Part shown: positions 3,975 to 16,220 of the stretch, in pieces | How the letters are laid out: each line of letters opens with the position of its first letter | Position numbering within the stretch: position 1 is the first letter of the stretch | From: a virus | Length of the DNA: 37,025 bases | Reading direction: 5' to 3' (one strand) | Virus record (IMG/VR): IMGVR_UViG_3300044972_001033 | Span: 1 to 37,025 of that record | Notes under the pieces: model-generated | What the model saw: the letters and a program-made list of their open reading frames with translations, nothing else | Database searches by the model: none | Told to the model about the DNA's origin: nothing | Program-made: the position numbers and the translations under genes

Positions 3975-4083
3975 CATGGCACATTAAAAAAATAAATGCC
4001 TACTGAGAAATAAATAAATTTTTGAAATCGTGTTTTTTTTATTTTTGCTCAAAAAACGGTTTTAAAGCTGTCCATGTGCCATG
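3975..4083. repeat. 10-bp perfect inverted repeat (CATGGCACAT)
   Basis: CATGGCACAT at 3975-3984 and its exact reverse complement ATGTGCCATG at 4074-4083 are 89 bp apart, around a very A/T-rich tract that includes a run of 8 T (4033-4040). The arms stand out because the rest of the region is nearly free of G and C. This could be a protein-binding pair that loops the DNA, or part of a replication origin. Confidence 0.55.
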
Positions 4084-4115
4084 ATACCAATAAACATTGA
4101 TAGTTTGAAAATCAC

Positions 4116-4135
4116 AAAGCGGAATAAAGCGGAAT
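4116..4135 (+). repeat. Tandem 10-bp repeat AAAGCGGAAT x2
   Basis: AAAGCGGAAT is repeated head to tail with a period of exactly 10 bp, one helical turn, so a protein would see both copies on the same face. It ends 14 bp upstream of the -33 element of the replication promoter. It may be an operator or short iterons of an origin. Confidence 0.6.
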
Positions 4136-4148
4136 ATTAAAAATAATC

Positions 4149-4179
4149 TTGTTTAATTAAATAATTTTACTTATCTTTG
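4149..4179 (+). promoter_or_regulatory. Replication-operon promoter (TTG-N20-TATCTTTG)
   Basis: TTG at 4149-4151 and TATCTTTG at 4172-4179 are 20 nt apart, a full match to the Bacteroidota -33/-7 arrangement. Transcription would start at about 4185, exactly where the structured leader begins. The promoter sits just downstream of the tandem 10-bp repeats. Confidence 0.8.
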
Positions 4180-4184
4180 TAAAC

Positions 4185-4257
4185 GCAGGTACTGTAGGCA
4201 TACGGTCGCAAGTGGTTAGACTTCCATCCTGCATCTTTTTTTTATAATAAGTCTACC
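4185..4257 (+). ncRNA. Structured leader RNA / attenuator candidate
   Basis: From the predicted start site, GCAGG (4185-4189) pairs with CCTGC (4228-4232), enclosing two small hairpins: ACTGT/ACGGT (4191-4195 with 4202-4206) and AAGT/ACTT (4210-4213 with 4220-4223). A T8 tract at 4236-4243 follows, as in a terminator. A competing fold is visible: TGGTTAGACTT (4213-4223) can pair with AAGTCTACCA (4249-4258) with one bulge, breaking the second hairpin. The leader ends 13 nt before the primase start. It could be an attenuator, a riboswitch-like element or a short phage RNA. No known class was recognised. Confidence 0.55.
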
Positions 4258-4270
4258 AAAAAAGTTAAAT

Positions 4271-6622
4271 ATGATAGCTACAATTTTTAAGGATTTATCA
4301 AAAACAAACACACCGTTTTATCGTGAAATTGATTTTATTATCAATAGAATTAAGTCAGGAACTTCAAAGGATTTAGTTGCTAAAATAAGGAAAGAAACAG
4401 ATAAAGAAAAAAGGAATTTACTTAAATCACAATTACCTGCAATCTGTTTTAGTGGTAAATTTTCTAGACGTGCCGATTCTGCAATATTAGAGCATAGTGG
4501 TATAATTTGCCTCGACTTTGACAATTATAATACAAATGATGAACTTTTAAAAGATTTAGCAATCTACAAAAAAGATAAGTATTCATTTTGTATTTTTATA
4601 AGTCCATCAGGAAACGGTTTTAAATTACTTGTTAAGATACCTAATGAAATTGAAAATCATAAACTTTATTTTGATAGCCTTTGTGAATACTATAATAATA
4701 ACCATTTTGATGTAACATCAAAAAATATAAGCAGAATATGTTTTGAATCTTATGATGCCGATATTTATGTAAACAAAAAATCAGAGATATGGCTAACAAA
4801 AAAGGAATATCAAACATATAGCTATGTAGATAAACAACCTACAATAAAACTTACAAATGAGAATGAGATAATAAAACGTATTTATAAATGGTTTGAAAAA
4901 AATCATTCATTTGATGCTGGGAAAAGGAATGCAAGTCTTTTTATTTTAGCATCTGCATTGTCAGATTATGGAATTTCTAAAGTAGAAACAAATCGTTTCT
5001 GTTTACAATTTCAACAGCAAGACTTTACACAATCAGAAATAGAACGCACTATCAGTTCTGCATATTCTAAATGTGCTGGGAACTTTGGAATGAAATACTT
5101 TGAAGATAAAGAGTCTTTGGATTTTGTAAAGAAGGAAATTAAGGTAGGTAAAACTTTAGATGAAATAAAAAAAGCAGTTCCACAAATAGAGAAAAAGTCT
5201 TTTGATGAAATAAAGGAAACAGTTACCATTAATGATTTTTGGCATTACTCTAAAAAGGGTGCAGTAATAATTGATAGCTATTCTTATAAGAGATGGTTGG
5301 AATCAAACGGATTTTATAAATTTTATCCTGATGGAGCAGATGGATTTATATTTATCAGAGTTGAAAATAATCTAATCGACAATACATCAGAGGAAAAATT
5401 AAAAGACTTTGTATTAAACGAACTTTTAAAAGTATCAGAATTTAAAGTTTATGAATTTTTAGCATCTAATAGTAAATTCTTTAAAGAAGATTATTTAAAC
5501 CTATTGGATAATATTGACGTACATTTTAAGGATGATACCATTGATACTGGATACATATACTTTTCAAATTGTGCAGTAAAAGTAACTGACAAAAAATGTG
5601 AGCTAATAGACTATATTGATTTGGATGGATTTGTTTGGAAAAAGCATATAATTGATTTTGAATTTAAACAAACTAAAGATTTAGAATGTGATTTTAAAAA
5701 GTTTATTCTATTGGTATCTAATAACGATATACAACGTTCACAATCACTTGAAACTACAATCGGATATCTTATGCACTCTTTTAAAACAAGTGCTAATAAT
5801 AAGGCTATAATACTGAATGATGAAACAATATCCGAGAATCCAAACGGAGGTTCAGGTAAAGGTATATTTTGGAACGCATTAAGCAAAGTAAAAAGAGTTG
5901 CTGATATAAACGGTAAATCATTTTCATTTGACAAAACGTTCCCTTATCAAACAGTTTCTGCAGATACTCAAATACTTGTTTTTGATGATGTAAATAAGAA
6001 CTTTAAATTTGAAAATCTATTTAGTGTAATTACAGAAGGGATTACACTTGAAAAAAAGAATAAAGATGCAATCAAAGTACCTGTTTCAAAATCACCTAAA
6101 ATAATTATTACAACTAATTACACCATTGGTGGGGTTGGCGGTTCGTATGAAAGGCGTAAATGGGAACTTGAATTTAGTAGCTATTTTAGTTCTAAATATA
6201 CACCATTGAATGAATTTGGTAGAATGTTATTTGATGAATGGGATAATATAGAATGGTTACGGTTCTATAATTATATGATTTATTGTCTTCAATCATATTT
6301 ACAGAATGGATTAGTAAAACACGAATTTCAGAATCTTGAAACAAGGAAATTTATTAAAGAAACATCGTTTGAATTTTATGAATTTGTTAACGAATCAGAT
6401 AACATTGAATTTAATACTCGAATTTATAAAAGTTCTATTTTTCAAAAGTTTATTGACGAATATCCTGACTTTAAAAAATGGCTATCAAATAAACGTTTTT
6501 GGCAATGGATGGAAATATATACAAAGAACTATAATTATAAATCAGAACAAGGCAAGGATATTTCAGGGCGTTGGATAAACATATCTAAAGACAGTACAAA
6601 TGAAGAGTTTACAATCTTTTAA
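4271..6622 (+). CDS. Primase-helicase (BT4734-type primase, SF3-like ATPase)
   Basis: A 783-residue replication protein. Residues about 20-165 resemble the BT4734/VirE_N domain, a primase-like fold, with the acidic pair LDFD (81-84) and the turn SPSGNGFKLL (111-120). A helical PriCT-like segment lies at about residues 205-270 (GKRNASLFILASALSDYGIS). The C-terminal half is a superfamily 3-like ATPase with Walker A NGGSGKG (K530) and Walker B ILVFDD (D572-573), then TTNY and an arginine-containing YERRKWE. It would prime and unwind phage DNA. It follows its own promoter and leader RNA and overlaps the next helicase gene by 23 bp. Confidence 0.88.
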   Translation: MIATIFKDLSKTNTPFYREIDFIINRIKSGTSKDLVAKIRKETDKEKRNLLKSQLPAICFSGKFSRRADSAILEHSGIICLDFDNYNTNDELLKDLAIYKKDKYSFCIFISPSGNGFKLLVKIPNEIENHKLYFDSLCEYYNNNHFDVTSKNISRICFESYDADIYVNKKSEIWLTKKEYQTYSYVDKQPTIKLTNENEIIKRIYKWFEKNHSFDAGKRNASLFILASALSDYGISKVETNRFCLQFQQQDFTQSEIERTISSAYSKCAGNFGMKYFEDKESLDFVKKEIKVGKTLDEIKKAVPQIEKKSFDEIKETVTINDFWHYSKKGAVIIDSYSYKRWLESNGFYKFYPDGADGFIFIRVENNLIDNTSEEKLKDFVLNELLKVSEFKVYEFLASNSKFFKEDYLNLLDNIDVHFKDDTIDTGYIYFSNCAVKVTDKKCELIDYIDLDGFVWKKHIIDFEFKQTKDLECDFKKFILLVSNNDIQRSQSLETTIGYLMHSFKTSANNKAIILNDETISENPNGGSGKGIFWNALSKVKRVADINGKSFSFDKTFPYQTVSADTQILVFDDVNKNFKFENLFSVITEGITLEKKNKDAIKVPVSKSPKIIITTNYTIGGVGGSYERRKWELEFSSYFSSKYTPLNEFGRMLFDEWDNIEWLRFYNYMIYCLQSYLQNGLVKHEFQNLETRKFIKETSFEFYEFVNESDNIEFNTRIYKSSIFQKFIDEYPDFKKWLSNKRFWQWMEIYTKNYNYKSEQGKDISGRWINISKDSTNEEFTIF

Positions 6623-8360: not shown

Positions 8361-9016
8361 TACTTACTACATTATCGCCTACAAATATTGAAAATCAGAA
8401 GTTGGCAGTATCTTCATGGTTAAGTTTAGGATATAATGTAAAGTCAATTAATAGCAAAGCAGATATTGAAAACTTAAAAAGGCATTTTAATATAGAGTTT
8501 ATAGAAACGGATTTAATCGGAAATGAATTTGGTAAAGACTATGTAAGGTTAAACGCTTTTACTGATTACATTAAAAAACATGGTTCTGCATTAATTATAA
8601 ATTCTGATATTGAAATTTTAGAACCTTTACAGATTGAAGAAAAAGAAAAAACAATAGAGATATTCAACCGAAATGATTATTCAAAAAATCACAACATATC
8701 AATAAAGTTTGAAAGTGGATTTGATGCTTTTTATATTACAAAAGAGTTTTCGTATTGGATTCCTAAAAGTAGGCTGGTTATTGGTCAATGTCATTGGGAT
8801 TACTTTTTGCCGTTAATAGCAATAAAGCATGAGTTTACCTTACTAAGTCCTAAAAAGTCGAATATGTATCATAAAAAACATCAAATACAGTACAATAACG
8901 AGAAATGGCGAAAGACAGGAAAGATATTTGCTATGGAATTAGGTTTGAGTGGTGATGTACTGAATGATAGCAGAAACTCACATAAATTGATTAAGTCTAA
9001 AATTGTTTATTATTAA
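8351..9016 (+). CDS. Putative glycosyltransferase (GT-A-like)
   Basis: A 221-residue protein whose N-terminal half looks like a GT-A nucleotide-sugar-binding fold. It starts MQLILTTLSPTNIENQ and has a short acidic motif after a hydrophobic strand, ALIINSDIEIL (about 79-89), in the position of the metal-binding DxD. The C-terminal half is rich in aromatic and His residues (GQCHWDYFLPL). It lies with an HNH endonuclease, a second glycosyltransferase and a FkbM methyltransferase. Possible substrates are virion proteins, phage DNA or host surface glycans; the sequence does not decide. It is shorter than most GT2 enzymes. Confidence 0.6.
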   Translation: MQLILTTLSPTNIENQKLAVSSWLSLGYNVKSINSKADIENLKRHFNIEFIETDLIGNEFGKDYVRLNAFTDYIKKHGSALIINSDIEILEPLQIEEKEKTIEIFNRNDYSKNHNISIKFESGFDAFYITKEFSYWIPKSRLVIGQCHWDYFLPLIAIKHEFTLLSPKKSNMYHKKHQIQYNNEKWRKTGKIFAMELGLSGDVLNDSRNSHKLIKSKIVYY

Positions 9017-9531
9017 TGGAAATTTGGAAAGATATAGTTGGATATGAAGGCTATTATCAAGTTAGTAATTTTGGTAGGGTAAAAGGAATTAATAGGTTAA
9101 TTGTACATGGGTTAAAAACAATAACTAAAAAAGAAAGAATGCTTAAGAATAGAAAAACAACTAAAGGTTATTATCAGGTAGTTTTATGTAAAAATGCAAA
9201 ATATTTTAATTATTCAGTACATAGATTGGTAGCTGAATCATTTACACAAAATACACTTAATAAATTACAGATAAATCATATAAATGGAATTAAAACAGAT
9301 AATCGTTTAGAAAACTTAGAATGGGTAACGCAATCTGAAAATATAAAACATGCGCATAATATAGGATTGATTAAGATGCCTAAACATGAAAACCATTATA
9401 AATCTAAATTGTCACAATATCAGATTGAAGAAATAAGAAGTGGAAAACATAAACAAATTGATTTAGCAAAAAGATATGGCGTACATAAAACAACAATATC
9501 AAAAATAGCAACAAACGTTAACTGGAGATGA
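9016..9531 (+). CDS. NUMOD4-HNH homing-type endonuclease
   Basis: A 171-residue free-standing HNH endonuclease. The N-terminal NUMOD4 motif is MEIWKDIVGYEGYYQVSNFG. The HNH region is HRLVAESF and then INHINGIKTDNRLENLEW (about 85-103). The C-terminus has a helix-turn-helix-like DNA-binding segment, IDLAKRYGVHKTTISKI. Such enzymes cut a specific site in related genomes lacking the gene and spread it by repair. It overlaps the upstream gene as TAATG and the downstream glycosyltransferase by 4 bp (ATGA). A second NUMOD4-HNH gene at 25864 has the same N-terminus but an AP2 C-terminus. Confidence 0.9.
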   Translation: MEIWKDIVGYEGYYQVSNFGRVKGINRLIVHGLKTITKKERMLKNRKTTKGYYQVVLCKNAKYFNYSVHRLVAESFTQNTLNKLQINHINGIKTDNRLENLEWVTQSENIKHAHNIGLIKMPKHENHYKSKLSQYQIEEIRSGKHKQIDLAKRYGVHKTTISKIATNVNWR

Positions 9532-10223
9532 TAAGCATTTTTATAAGAACATATAGTAGGGATATAAAGTGGTTAAGGTACTGCCTCGAAAGTATTCACA
9601 AAAACCTAATTGGATGGAGTGAGATAATTATAGTAATACCTATCGGTCAAGAACCTTTACTTTCACACCTTACAGAAGAGAAAGTATATACTTGTAAAAT
9701 TCAAAAAGATGATTATCTTTTCCAACAGGTAACTAAACTAAACGCACACTTGTATTGCAAAGGCGATTATATTCTTTATGTAGATAGTGACGTTATATTC
9801 AAGCATAATGCAGATGTAAGAGATTATTTCCACAACAATAAGCCAGTTATCTTAAAGGCTAACTATAATTCGGTAGGCGGTGCAATATGCTGGAAAAAAC
9901 CAACTGAAAAGCTATTTAAGGAAAATATTGACTTCGAGTATATGCGCCGTGCCCCTCAGTTATTTAACCGTTCTACTTTAGAAATGATAAATGATTCATT
10001 TCCTGATTTAGAGAATTATATAATGTCGCAACCGTACAGACAATTTAGTGAGTTTAACGCATTAGGGTTTTATGCTGAAAAAATGCAACCTGAAAGCTAT
10101 GAAATAATAGATATTACAAACGGAACTCCAGATTATATACCTGAAAATAAATCAGTTCAAAAATGGTCATGGGGTGGTATAACTCAAGAAATAAAAACAG
10201 AATTAGAAAGTTACTTAATATGA
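9528..10223 (+). CDS. Glycosyltransferase (GT2-like)
   Basis: A 231-residue protein with a GT-A fold signature. The N-terminal strand is MISIFIRTYSRDIKWLRYCL, typical of family 2 enzymes. The DxD-like metal-binding motif is LYVDSDVIF (about 83-91). Residues GGAICWKKP (about 118) and FSEFNALGFYAE (about 176) could form the acceptor side. It would transfer a sugar from a nucleotide donor to an unknown acceptor. It is coupled by 4-bp overlaps both to the HNH gene before it and to the FkbM methyltransferase after it. Confidence 0.75.
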   Translation: MISIFIRTYSRDIKWLRYCLESIHKNLIGWSEIIIVIPIGQEPLLSHLTEEKVYTCKIQKDDYLFQQVTKLNAHLYCKGDYILYVDSDVIFKHNADVRDYFHNNKPVILKANYNSVGGAICWKKPTEKLFKENIDFEYMRRAPQLFNRSTLEMINDSFPDLENYIMSQPYRQFSEFNALGFYAEKMQPESYEIIDITNGTPDYIPENKSVQKWSWGGITQEIKTELESYLI

Positions 10224-10906
10224 AAATAATTAAAGGCAGAAACGGCAAAGAAATTGCAATACTTGAAACAGATAATTGCATCTGTAAATTTGTAGAGCAA
10301 TCGGGAAGGCTTGACCACGATAGAAATATGTTGCCTATTGTTTTGAGTCATATTCCTATTAACGGTATTGTTTTGGATATAGGAGGGTTTATAGGCGACC
10401 ATACTATTGCTTACTTAAATAAAGTAGGTGAAAATGGAATAGTTTATGCATTTGAACCATACATTAAAGCCTTTGAATGTTTAGAATTTAATTTAAAGGA
10501 TTACAAAAACGTAAAAGCATTTAATTACGCTTTAGGCAATAGTGAAGATTATATATCAATGGAAATTGTAGAAACTAATGATGGAATGAACTTTATAAAA
10601 GAGGGAAATGAAGTTAGGATAACAAAATTAGATACAATCTCAAAAAATTTTAGTAAATTAGACTTCATAAAAATAGACTGTGAAGGATATGAACTTGAAG
10701 TTTTAAAAGGCGGTCAACATACAATACAAAAGTTTAAGCCTAAAATGTTAATTGAAATAAACGAAATGACACTAAACAGACAAGGAATAAAACGTGAGGA
10801 CATTTATGAATGGTTAGATACGGCAGGATATATTTACCATAATATTTATGCTAATCATGGTTTATATGAATCACAGATGGATATAATTTGTCAACCTTTA
10901 AGCTAA
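10220..10906 (+). CDS. FkbM-family SAM-dependent methyltransferase
   Basis: Start ATG 10220 is chosen because it overlaps the upstream stop as ATGA; an in-frame ATG at 10163 would give a 57-bp overlap. The 228-residue protein has SAM-binding motif VLDIGGFIGDHT (about 50-61), VYAFEP (about 76-81) and the family hallmark FIKIDCEGYELEVLKGG (about 148-164). FkbM enzymes O-methylate small molecules and sugars. Beside two glycosyltransferases, the likely role is capping or decorating a glycan on a phage or host structure. Confidence 0.85.
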   Translation: MKIIKGRNGKEIAILETDNCICKFVEQSGRLDHDRNMLPIVLSHIPINGIVLDIGGFIGDHTIAYLNKVGENGIVYAFEPYIKAFECLEFNLKDYKNVKAFNYALGNSEDYISMEIVETNDGMNFIKEGNEVRITKLDTISKNFSKLDFIKIDCEGYELEVLKGGQHTIQKFKPKMLIEINEMTLNRQGIKREDIYEWLDTAGYIYHNIYANHGLYESQMDIICQPLS

Positions 10907-13015: not shown

Positions 13016-13619
13016 TTTATTCAAAAAGAAGCCAAAGAAATACGGAAATCACATTTTTACATTTCCGAACGGCAAAAAGCTATACCAGGTAAAAGAAGAC
13101 TTCTTTGCAAAGCTACCGAACACTAAGCTAATTTCTATTCAGGAAAACAGCAACTATATTGCACACTTAGGCGTCAGTAAAACAACTATGGAAGCTGGTC
13201 ACAAAATGATTAAAGAGAACGCCTACGAAATAAAGATACTATCTAAAAGCAGAGGCAAAACAAGTGAGTTAGATAAAAAGTGTGATGATCAGATAAAGCT
13301 AATTGAGCAGATAGAAACAACCCGAAAGGAATACGACAACACAAACGAAGCTATAATGGTATCATTGTTTGACTTGTTTTTCTTTTTTGAGAATGAAAAT
13401 ATCTTTGAGAAATCAGATGAAACATTAGAACTTAAACGCCACTACTTAAACGAATATCCTTATTTCAGGAATTTTTTTTTTCAGAAATTGAACGACTATA
13501 CGGATATTTACAAAGTCACCTTTCAAAACTGTATCCACTTTGCTTTAGCACAAACGGCGATACAGGAGATAGTAAAGGACTTGAGCCTTACAAGTATCGT
13601 AGAACCCAAAACGAATTAG
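13005..13619 (+). CDS. Tail assembly chaperone, 0-frame product (putative)
   Basis: A 204-residue Lys- and Phe-rich protein directly before the tape-measure gene, the position of gpG-type tail assembly chaperones that hold the tape measure during tail assembly. It begins MRFNLFKKKPKKYGNHIFTF. A T10 run at 13472-13481 encodes three Phe and provides an in-frame T-TTT-TTT slippery heptamer (13475-13481). Slipping -1 there would leave this frame and continue in an 86-codon extension to 13741. The last 46 codons of the 0-frame (from 13482) look less protein-like than the -1 frame, so the long product may be the main one. Confidence 0.65.
   Translation: MRFNLFKKKPKKYGNHIFTFPNGKKLYQVKEDFFAKLPNTKLISIQENSNYIAHLGVSKTTMEAGHKMIKENAYEIKILSKSRGKTSELDKKCDDQIKLIEQIETTRKEYDNTNEAIMVSLFDLFFFFENENIFEKSDETLELKRHYLNEYPYFRNFFFQKLNDYTDIYKVTFQNCIHFALAQTAIQEIVKDLSLTSIVEPKTN
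13472..13481 (+). other. -1 ribosomal frameshift site (T10 run)
   Basis: Ten consecutive T. In the 0-frame the codons are AAT TTT TTT TTT CAG, so T-TTT-TTT is a canonical -1 slippery heptamer that keeps full codon pairing after slippage. No strong downstream hairpin was seen. A length error in the homopolymer is the alternative explanation. Confidence 0.6.
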
Positions 13620-13741: not shown

Positions 13742-13810
13742 CATTATCAAAATTAATTACTAATATTGCATAGGGTTTTATGTTTTTTTATTGTCTTATT
13801 TATACTTGGA

Positions 13811-13837
13811 GTGGGTACATTAGTACCCGCTTTTTTA
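13811..13837 (+). terminator. Rho-independent terminator before the tape measure
   Basis: GTGGGTAC (13811-13818), loop ATTA, GTACCCGC and then T6 (13831-13836). The 8-bp stem has one G-T pair at its second position and Watson-Crick pairs otherwise. It separates the chaperone transcript from the tape-measure promoter 6 bp downstream. Confidence 0.85.
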
Positions 13838-13842
13838 TTAAT

Positions 13843-13886: not shown

Positions 13887-16220
13887 ATGGCTAATGATAA
13901 TGATATAATTGCAAAGCTAAAAGTTGAGGGACTTTCTCAATTTAAAGTTGAAATGTCGCAAAGCTCTAAAGCGGTTGATAGTACAACGGTTTCTATTAAT
14001 AAAATGGAAAAGGCTATCACTGAAGCCACAGACCCAAAAGACGTACAAAGACTTACAAAAGAATTAGAGGCTGTAAAGATTGCAAGTGAAGCGGGTGCTA
14101 CTGCATTTGAAAGTTCTAAGGCTAAATTAAGAGCCTACAAAGAAGAGGCAACAGGACTTGCAGTTGTATTAGCTACTTTAAAAAGTGAGGGTAAACAAAA
14201 TACACAAACTTTTAAAGACATTGAAAAACAGTTTGAAGCTACAAAGCGAAAAGCGGGTGACTTATCCGACCAAATAGGTGATATTAATCAGGAAATTAAA
14301 GCATTAGGTAGTGATACACGTGGAATAGATAACGTGGTGCGTGGTGCTACTTTAATGGCTAATGGCTTTCAATTGGTAACAGGTGTTCAGGCTTTATTAG
14401 GAAAAGAAAACAAGGCTTTATCTGAAGGGTTGTTAAAGCTAAACGGAATAATGGCAGTTACTCAATCTATTCAACAAATAGGTAATGAGTTGACACGTGA
14501 GGATTCAATCGTAAAACAAGCTGCAACAAAGGCAACAGCATTATATAATATGGTTGTCGGTCAAAGTACAGGCGTTATGAAAGTTTTTAAAATAGCTTTA
14601 GCATCAACAGGTATAGGATTATTGGTTATTGCTATTGGTACTTTAGTAGCTAACTTTGATAAGTTAAAGTCTTTTGCAGTTCAATTATTTCCGACATTAA
14701 ATGGCTTAGGTGACAGGTTCACAAAGTTAAAAGATAACGTTATTTCCTTTGTTAAGAACGGAATAGGAAATTTATTAAATTCATTCATAGACACCTACAA
14801 TGAGAGTCTAACACTTAGAACGGTTATTGTGGGAATTGGAGTATCATTTAAGACATTAGCACAATTAGTAATAGTAAACGGAAAAGCAATATTTACAATA
14901 TTCAGTTCAATAGGTCAGGCTATATTACACCCTACAAAAGCACTAAGCATATTAAAAAGCGGATTAGGAAAGATATTTGATAACTACAAAGAGTTTGGCG
15001 GAACGGTTGTAAAGAACATAAAAGACGGTGCTGAAATTGCAGTTAAAAGCCGTTTAAATAGAATTGACATATCTAAATTAGTAGATGAAGAAAAAACAAA
15101 AGAATCTGGTACTAAAATAGCAAAAGAAATAAAAAGTAAGGCAGAAACTGAATTGCAAAACAATCCTGTAACTTTAAATGTAGAGTTAGGAGTTACAAAT
15201 GGATTTGATGTATTAGATGCTAAAATAAAAGAAACACAGGAATTATTAGAGTCTTTATATACAGGTGAATTAGCAAGTGGTGGTAATCCAAACGAGAATC
15301 CACAAATACTATACCTTTTAGACCAACTTAAAAAACTTAAATTAGAACTTGAAACTACTAAAGCGGATTTTGATGCATTGGTTAATCCATCAAGAGCAAC
15401 GCCAAACGTACCAAAAATAGCTGGTGGCGGAAAGTCTAAAAGTCAACCTTCATTTTGGGATACCTATTTTGGAGATAAAGCAACGCAATTAAGCAGAGCG
15501 GAAGGTGCAAAGAAAATAATAGAAGATATAAATTCTTATGGAGTTCAAATTTCAAATATTGCAGAACAAGCAATACAAATAAGAGCAAGTAATGAGTTAA
15601 CAGCATTAGAAGAAAAAAGAGATAAGGGTATTATTACAGAAAAAGAATATGAAAAGAAATCAGCAGAAATTAAAAATGAAGCTGCAAGGAAAAAACGTGC
15701 AATTGATATTGCTAATGCAACGGCTCAAATACCTGTTGCGGTGTTGTCGGCTTACATTGCAGGTATGCAAATTGGCGGTGTAGCAGCACCAATTGTTGCT
15801 GGTGTATTAGCAGGTGTTGCGGGTGCGTTTGGTATTGCACAGGTAGCATTAATTGCAGCAGCACCACTTCCCAAATTTAGGGAAGGTGGGTCGGTAGCTA
15901 AACGTTTAGGATTAATCAAAGGCGCAAAGCATGAACAAGGCGGTGTACCTATTGAGGTTGAAGGTGATGAATTTGTGGTAAAATCACAGGCTACAAAGAA
16001 ATACGGTGTAAAAATGTTAGATGATATTAACAATTTACGATTTAATCCTATTCTAAGCGCAAATAAGAAACTTAAAACACAAAGCAATGATTTACGTTTA
16101 TACGAAAATTTAGCTACCATATCAAGCTATTTAAAACAAGGTTATAAAGTAGATGCAAACGGCAATCAGATACTAAAAGAAATTAGCAATAAGTTAAATA
16201 ATAAGTCAATTTATGTTTAG
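13887..16220 (+). CDS. Tape measure protein
   Basis: A 777-residue protein that sets tail length and passes through the tail tube on injection. The N-terminal 150 residues are coiled-coil and Lys/Glu-rich (KLKVEGLSQFKVEMSQSSKA). A hydrophobic segment lies at about 232-256 (ALASTGIGLLVIAIGTLVAN). A long Ala/Gly-rich hydrophobic stretch occupies about 611-665 (VAAPIVAGVLAGVAGAFGIA). It is followed by the conserved C-terminal block KFREGG...GAKHEQGGVPIEVEGDEFV. At roughly 1.5 angstrom per residue it predicts a tail near 115 nm. It overlaps the next gene by 8 bp. Confidence 0.92.
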   Translation: MANDNDIIAKLKVEGLSQFKVEMSQSSKAVDSTTVSINKMEKAITEATDPKDVQRLTKELEAVKIASEAGATAFESSKAKLRAYKEEATGLAVVLATLKSEGKQNTQTFKDIEKQFEATKRKAGDLSDQIGDINQEIKALGSDTRGIDNVVRGATLMANGFQLVTGVQALLGKENKALSEGLLKLNGIMAVTQSIQQIGNELTREDSIVKQAATKATALYNMVVGQSTGVMKVFKIALASTGIGLLVIAIGTLVANFDKLKSFAVQLFPTLNGLGDRFTKLKDNVISFVKNGIGNLLNSFIDTYNESLTLRTVIVGIGVSFKTLAQLVIVNGKAIFTIFSSIGQAILHPTKALSILKSGLGKIFDNYKEFGGTVVKNIKDGAEIAVKSRLNRIDISKLVDEEKTKESGTKIAKEIKSKAETELQNNPVTLNVELGVTNGFDVLDAKIKETQELLESLYTGELASGGNPNENPQILYLLDQLKKLKLELETTKADFDALVNPSRATPNVPKIAGGGKSKSQPSFWDTYFGDKATQLSRAEGAKKIIEDINSYGVQISNIAEQAIQIRASNELTALEEKRDKGIITEKEYEKKSAEIKNEAARKKRAIDIANATAQIPVAVLSAYIAGMQIGGVAAPIVAGVLAGVAGAFGIAQVALIAAAPLPKFREGGSVAKRLGLIKGAKHEQGGVPIEVEGDEFVVKSQATKKYGVKMLDDINNLRFNPILSANKKLKTQSNDLRLYENLATISSYLKQGYKVDANGNQILKEISNKLNNKSIYV

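Follow-up and report, generated by a model that had tools for sequence, protein, structure and literature searches.

In the leader of repZ of the IncI-alpha plasmid ColIb-P9, a hairpin loop pairs with a downstream strand near the start of the gene and thereby forms a pseudoknot. Attenuators of the pT181 type combine a leader with a terminator, next to a replication gene, with loop-loop pairing. Among the phages, the CI RNA of P4 is a short leader RNA of an early operon with a loop complementary to the same transcript, the leader of T4 gene 32, a replication gene under autoregulation, contains a pseudoknot, and the packaging RNA of phi29 has complementary loops and keeps its structure without keeping its sequence. 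Likewise, the c4 RNA of P1 and P7 is a short early-operon leader RNA and has a loop with complementary sequences elsewhere in its own transcript (PMC12197685). Replication leaders of the IncI-alpha, IncB and IncL/M type are the subject of titles cited in PMC10724649, and attenuators of the pT181 type are treated in PMC3753616 and named in a title cited in PMC10724649.

Loop-pairing leaders, attenuators and phage leader RNAs are known kinds, represented by IncI-alpha repZ, pT181 and c4/CI. A phage leader family with two self-complementary loops, one of them in a terminator-like stem, that stands at several early promoters with private sequences was absent from Rfam and from the limited literature searched. 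The leaders described below resemble those of ColIb-P9 repZ, IncB and IncL/M plasmids in that a loop of a replication-gene leader pairs with a downstream strand near the start. Unlike repZ, they carry two kissing hairpin loops followed by a U-run, they precede many gene types, and no counter-transcribed antisense RNA was found, as antisense -7 boxes were not enriched (1.1 per 120 nt near the gene start vs 0.9 inside genes). Loop pairing within a replication-gene leader, which is a trait of antisense-controlled plasmid leaders, is nevertheless present. With pT181-type attenuators they share a terminator-like stem next to a replication gene as well as loop-loop pairing, but the partner loop lies in the same RNA and not on an antisense transcript. 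The likeness to P4 CI and P1/P7 c4 consists in a putative short RNA that derives from an early operon's leader and bears a loop complementary to the same transcript; unlike with these, no lysogeny genes were seen in the phage records searched, the leaders had no Rfam match and no conserved sequence, and each phage has several private copies. A pseudoknot leader of a phage replication gene also recalls T4 gene 32, from which the module differs in its topology, the lack of a conserved binding sequence and the many unrelated target genes; this variety of downstream genes argues, as far as sequence can tell, against one shared binder among the gene products. The complementary loops and the structure kept without sequence are similar to phi29 packaging RNA, but the module belongs to the leaders of early-gene mRNAs and carries a U-run.

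The leader upstream of the primase gene

The analysed DNA, referred to as the window, is a 37,025-nt stretch of a viral genome. The preliminary description had proposed a structured control leader with a U-run between a promoter and the first gene, and this is supported; moreover, the leader proves to be one of a family. The promoter, written as TTG-N20-TATCTTTG, the T8 run and the stem GCAGG/CCTGC (P1) enclosing two small hairpins are all present as read, and the 3' arm of P1, for which no exact position had been given, was placed (Table 1). The strand said to reach to within 12 nt of the primase start was also found, as AAGTCTA together with CCA (4256-4258) ends 12 nt before the ATG. The claim of two competing folds has to be revised. 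TAGACTT lies in the loop of a hairpin inside P1 and its partner AAGTCTA lies downstream, outside the stem; the pairing therefore crosses P1, making a pseudoknot that can coexist with it. Competition with the small hairpin would arise from the TGG/CCA extension alone.

Table 1. Features of the window around the primase leader and their counterparts in the related locus L002
Feature	Position	Strand	Remarks	Counterpart in L002
Inverted copies CATGGCACAT (3975-3984) and ATGTGCCATG (4074-4083)	3975..4083	.	possible origin or operator sites	
Tandem AAAGCGGAAT repeat before promoter	4116..4135	+	possible initiator binding sites	
Promoter	4149..4179	+	TTG 4149-4151, 20-nt spacer, -7 box TATCTTTG 4172-4179; read from sequence	
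5' arm of outer stem P1, GCAGG	4185..4189	+	at expected RNA start	GAGGTGG
Inner hairpin, ACTGTA-GGCA-TACGGT	4191..4206	+	loop same in L002, stem pairs changed	AACGGA-GGCA-TCCGTT
Hairpin 2, GTGG-TTAGACTT-CCAT	4212..4227	+	loop exposes TAGACTT, 4217-4223	AAGT-TGTCGG-ACTT
3' arm of P1, CCTGC	4228..4232	+		CCACCTC
T8, terminator-like U-run	4236..4243	+	directly 3' of P1; canonical relatives have a T-rich tail after the enclosing stem	T5
AAGTCTA, partner of hairpin 2 loop	4249..4255	+	near primase start	CCGACA (pairs with TGTCGG)
Primase ORF	4271..6622	+	783 aa, first gene after leader; BT4734-like_N, weak PriCT_1; PHROG 28855	

Taken alone, the window leader is weakly supported in energetic terms. 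The folding energy of a 96-nt stretch was about that of its shuffles (z -0.12, 87/200 shuffles as good), and 4185-4243 folded alone reached z -1.63, with 16/200 shuffles as good. The leader of L002, whose primase is 77% identical to that of the window, folds with z -3.8 and has the shape of the window leader in other letters. When the full shape was required, that is, an outer stem, two hairpins and a second loop with at least 6 or at least 7 nt complementary downstream, the window was equalled by 3/3,000 shuffles at 6 nt and by 0/3,000 at 7 nt, and L002 by 2/3,000 at 6 nt, counts that are somewhat optimistic as the definition was set after both leaders had been viewed. In this mirrored form, the stem bearing the U-run comes first and encloses hairpin 2, the loop of which complements a strand just before the start codon. 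The form consists of these two sequences only, and searches for further relatives found no third member.

Canonical leaders, their covariation and distribution

Those relatives of the window that have a leader mostly carry a canonical one, in which hairpin 1 is followed by about 10-34 nt of AU linker and by a terminator-like stem (b:b') of 7-15 bp with a U-run or T-rich tail, which encloses hairpin 2. These leaders begin within a few bases of a TTTG box that is placed as the -7 box of the window is. Between the loops of hairpins 1 and 2, complementarity extends over 6-12 nt, as in L006 (TGGTGG/CCACCA), L010 (GTAGAG/CTCTAC), L035 (GTAGTGGC/GCCACTAC), L037 (GTGCAG/CTGCAC), L101 (ATGCAG/CTGCAT), L133 (CTGGAAG/CTTCCAG) and L215 (CGTCTAAC/GTTAGACG). 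As judged from sequence, the window leader is a divergent member of this previously unlisted leader RNA family of Bacteroidota phages.

A generic crossing-stem scan was dropped because of too many chance matches, and a four-helix detector, which requires both hairpins, the kiss and the enclosing stem, was run instead on the 130 nt before the gene. Scores between -35.8 and -53.4 were obtained for 26 of the 32 leaders examined (25 at 0/400 shuffles and one at 1/400), while most of the 27 leader-less relatives scored 0 and none scored below -28. The window leader was missed owing to its mirrored form; L017, L043, L060 and L145 were missed as well and L153 was weak. Among these, L043 gave a strong crossing-stem fit, and in the others crossing stems are visible by eye. 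Plain MFE folding, which is blind to the kiss, recovered hairpin 1 and b[hairpin 2]b' in L006, L010, L215 and L133 (z -3.1 to -5.6). In 12 of 21 primase leaders, the loops found by MFE were complementary over at least 6 nt, and over 37 sequences, 16 of them picked by the detector, the mean longest complementary run between loops was 5.1 vs 2.6 in shuffles. One of the leader-less relatives, L200, has a GGGAGG/CCTCCC hairpin and T5 directly before the primase start (gene at 4001), possibly a reduced attenuator.

Covariation was found in two families of leaders. In the alignable six-leader family, 99.2% of cells are paired and 8 of 20 pairs change on both sides, giving 17 double-change cells vs 6.0 in shuffles (0/500); the covariation score was 0.423, and slid partners gave 0.037 or less. 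The second family is 100% paired with 4 double changes. Moreover, one phage contig carries two paralogous leaders before different endonuclease-like genes (L141:5477-5549 and L141:7347-7420), which differ by an A-U to C-G change in the kiss and a G-C to A-U change in the stem, both compensated. The preliminary description had made its reading depend on covariation and on the retention of the stems in close relatives, and the finding survives, with many more distant primase relatives (L019-L023, L044-L054, L055-L066, L067-L099 and others) carrying no such leader. Overall, the structure is well supported by the sequences, in which architecture, position, covariation and association with early genes can be read directly.

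Between leaders, the kiss and stem sequences are wholly different, and each copy and each phage has its private loop sequence. Between L006 and L010, identity is 96% in the first 600 nt of the primase and 95% upstream, and yet the kiss and b arms are replaced and the shape is kept; no other close pair combines a changed core with flanks that are nearly identical. Upstream of the replication operon, the leader was read in Flavobacterium phage elemoE (L106:3751-3849), and a leader with a different loop in elemoA (L251, about 1612-1730), where the detector did not return the fold, which was drawn by eye. The two are 98% identical upstream and their leader cores differ strongly, but the downstream gene diverged too, so recombination may explain the difference. 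Shape kept while sequence changes points, in our reading, to RNA-level control of early phage genes. A structured RNA family of this kind, which is recognisable by its shape and internal complementarity and conserves almost no sequence, would escape sequence-based RNA searches.

In a scan of 1.92 Mb of loci that overlap and are biased to the primase neighbourhood, unique sites with promoter and T-rich tail numbered 58 on the + strand and 6 on the - strand, as compared with 1 in shuffles. When the threshold was lowered slightly, 51 of 59 sites were found to sit 8-24 nt before an ATG. The genes that follow, named from the start of their sequences, include primase, Erf-like (recombination), NUMOD4/HNH-like and GIY-YIG-like endonucleases and small unknown proteins. 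Control had previously been assigned to the primase-helicase; the leader does precede the primase, but this was too narrow, since Erf-type recombination, HNH, GIY-YIG and other early genes are preceded by it too. Ten phage contigs of 30-37 kb contained one to three sites each (with one weak extra site in G013). The replication-operon region is carried by 68 records of Flavobacterium phage elemo (host Flavobacterium sp. BAL314), and as these include cultured members, the module can be tested at once. The detector returned no qualifying site in positions 1-50 kb of crAss001 and of Maribacter phage Panino or in about 10 kb each of Polaribacter phage Leef_1 and Cellulophaga phage phi46:1. The module sits on early genes of phages of a major bacterial phylum with little-known post-transcriptional control.

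Possible modes of action

A stem and then a U-run before the first gene, which is a trait of attenuators, was found, with a T-rich tail in nearly all leaders. The 8 nt after b' contain on average 5.8 T and 1.5 A; since T likewise makes up 4.6 of the final 8 nt ahead of the gene, part of this bias may be due to composition. The U-run is absent in L043 and weak in the L101 and L133 types. A T-rich-tailed stem in such a place, after a promoter and before a start codon, resembles an attenuator; the kiss would link the loop of this stem with hairpin 1. The best explanation, which we hold tentatively, is an early-gene attenuator with copy-specific loop-loop pairing, acting as a co-transcriptional RNA control module between the early promoter and the first gene. 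The stem with its U-run would be a leaky terminator, releasing a short RNA of about 60 nt in the window and about 80-100 nt in the relatives. In the latter, the complementary loops of hairpins 1 and 2 could kiss, which would set the share of the transcript that reads through or is translated. As the loop sequence is private to each copy, feedback by the short RNA could be confined to the operon from which it comes and would limit early-gene output as copies accumulate. Termination, kissing in cells, the direction of the effect and any action in trans are what we infer from this arrangement. Because the window form has its kissing partner downstream of the U-run, the kiss there cannot influence whether its own transcript terminates; it may act on translation instead, and a translational role or one in trans should be considered here.

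Control of translation, in which a pseudoknot or kissing fold near the start gates the access of ribosomes in an SD-less organism and the U-run is only AU-rich leader, is possible, though on balance unlikely. It is the reading that accommodates the canonical as well as the mirrored form, the distance from the end of b' or k' to the ATG is usually 8-24 nt, and the kissing partner of the window itself adjoins the start region. Also, translation initiation in Flavobacterium is tuned by mRNA leader structure (PMC6847099). However, it is T and not A that is enriched directly after the stem, the distance to the ATG varies, and canonical leaders have hairpin 1 far away from the start codon. We see still less reason to expect a trans-acting specificity RNA, that is, a short leader RNA that, in the manner of P1 c4 or P4 CI RNA, silences the same leader in sister phages or in phages entering the cell. 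The kissing sequences are private to each copy and phage, the cores of L006 and L010 were turned over between similar flanks, and the window loop complements a strand close to where the gene begins, an arrangement also reported for c4 RNA (PMC12197685). Nevertheless, the loops also pair in cis, neutral compensatory drift accounts for the private sequences, and there is no sign of lysogeny, as a search confined to the Phage_integrase domain gave no match in 24 records, several of which are fragments. Private loop sequences would suit a self-recognising RNA, and compensated neutral drift gives an identical picture. A match to a described RNA family, which would mark an immunity RNA of the c4 or P4 CI type, was absent. 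We would rank attenuation first, translational gating second and a trans-acting, immunity-like RNA third. The wider notion of a family of self-kissing attenuators, in which private terminated leaders recognise only their own leader, provide orthogonal copy-number-sensing control of early genes and possibly exclude matching co-infecting phages, seems doubtful at present; if the loops do act in trans, the leaders would form a natural set of orthogonal RNA regulators.

A purely structural role, in 5' end protection or as an origin-linked RNA (primer or R-loop) beside iterons, is improbable. The RNA start coincides with the fold and repeats are present upstream of the promoter, but the module also stands before endonuclease and other genes away from the primase and so is not tied to an origin; an iteron-linked origin RNA was rejected on the same ground. 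Chance folding of an AU-rich leader would agree with the near-chance energy of the window alone and is contradicted by the shuffles (detector, scan and full shape) and by the covariation, which makes it the most remote of these readings by our estimate. The preliminary description had recognised no known RNA class, and Rfam 15 agreed: no family matched the window leader even at E up to 1, and there was no match at the gathering score to the leaders in 15 relative loci. Its term riboswitch-like is unlikely to apply, given that no conserved sequence able to form an aptamer was found; the kiss and stem sequences differ wholly between leaders, with neither the conserved aptamer core of a metabolite riboswitch nor an Rfam match. 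An HDV-like ribozyme has a similar helix order, but the first stem, often 8-12 bp, sits where the RNA begins, and self-cleavage there would serve no purpose. A leader peptide was dropped too: an ATG follows the first arm in some class B leaders, but the frames are not conserved (L011 vs L012) and several leaders have no ATG.

Upstream repeats and other features of the window

Short repeats precede the promoter in the window (3975-4135), and they are also present ahead of the primase in L002, L006, L011, L068 and L101. They are of the types ATGTGCCAT, AAAGCGGAAT, AATCCGTTAT and CGTCACAAA, with ATGTGCCAT repeated in L002, and they resemble the iterons found at replication origins. Where relatives have no leader, as in L068, the repeats extend as far as the start codon.

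Further downstream, the phage early region contains a weak DUF6492 match and an FkbM methyltransferase (9528-10906), adjoined by a NUMOD4-HNH endonuclease gene (9016-9531). A strong intrinsic-terminator-like hairpin, GTGGGTACATTAGTACCCGC followed by T6, is present at 13805-13840, between ORFs ending at 13619 and starting at 13887.
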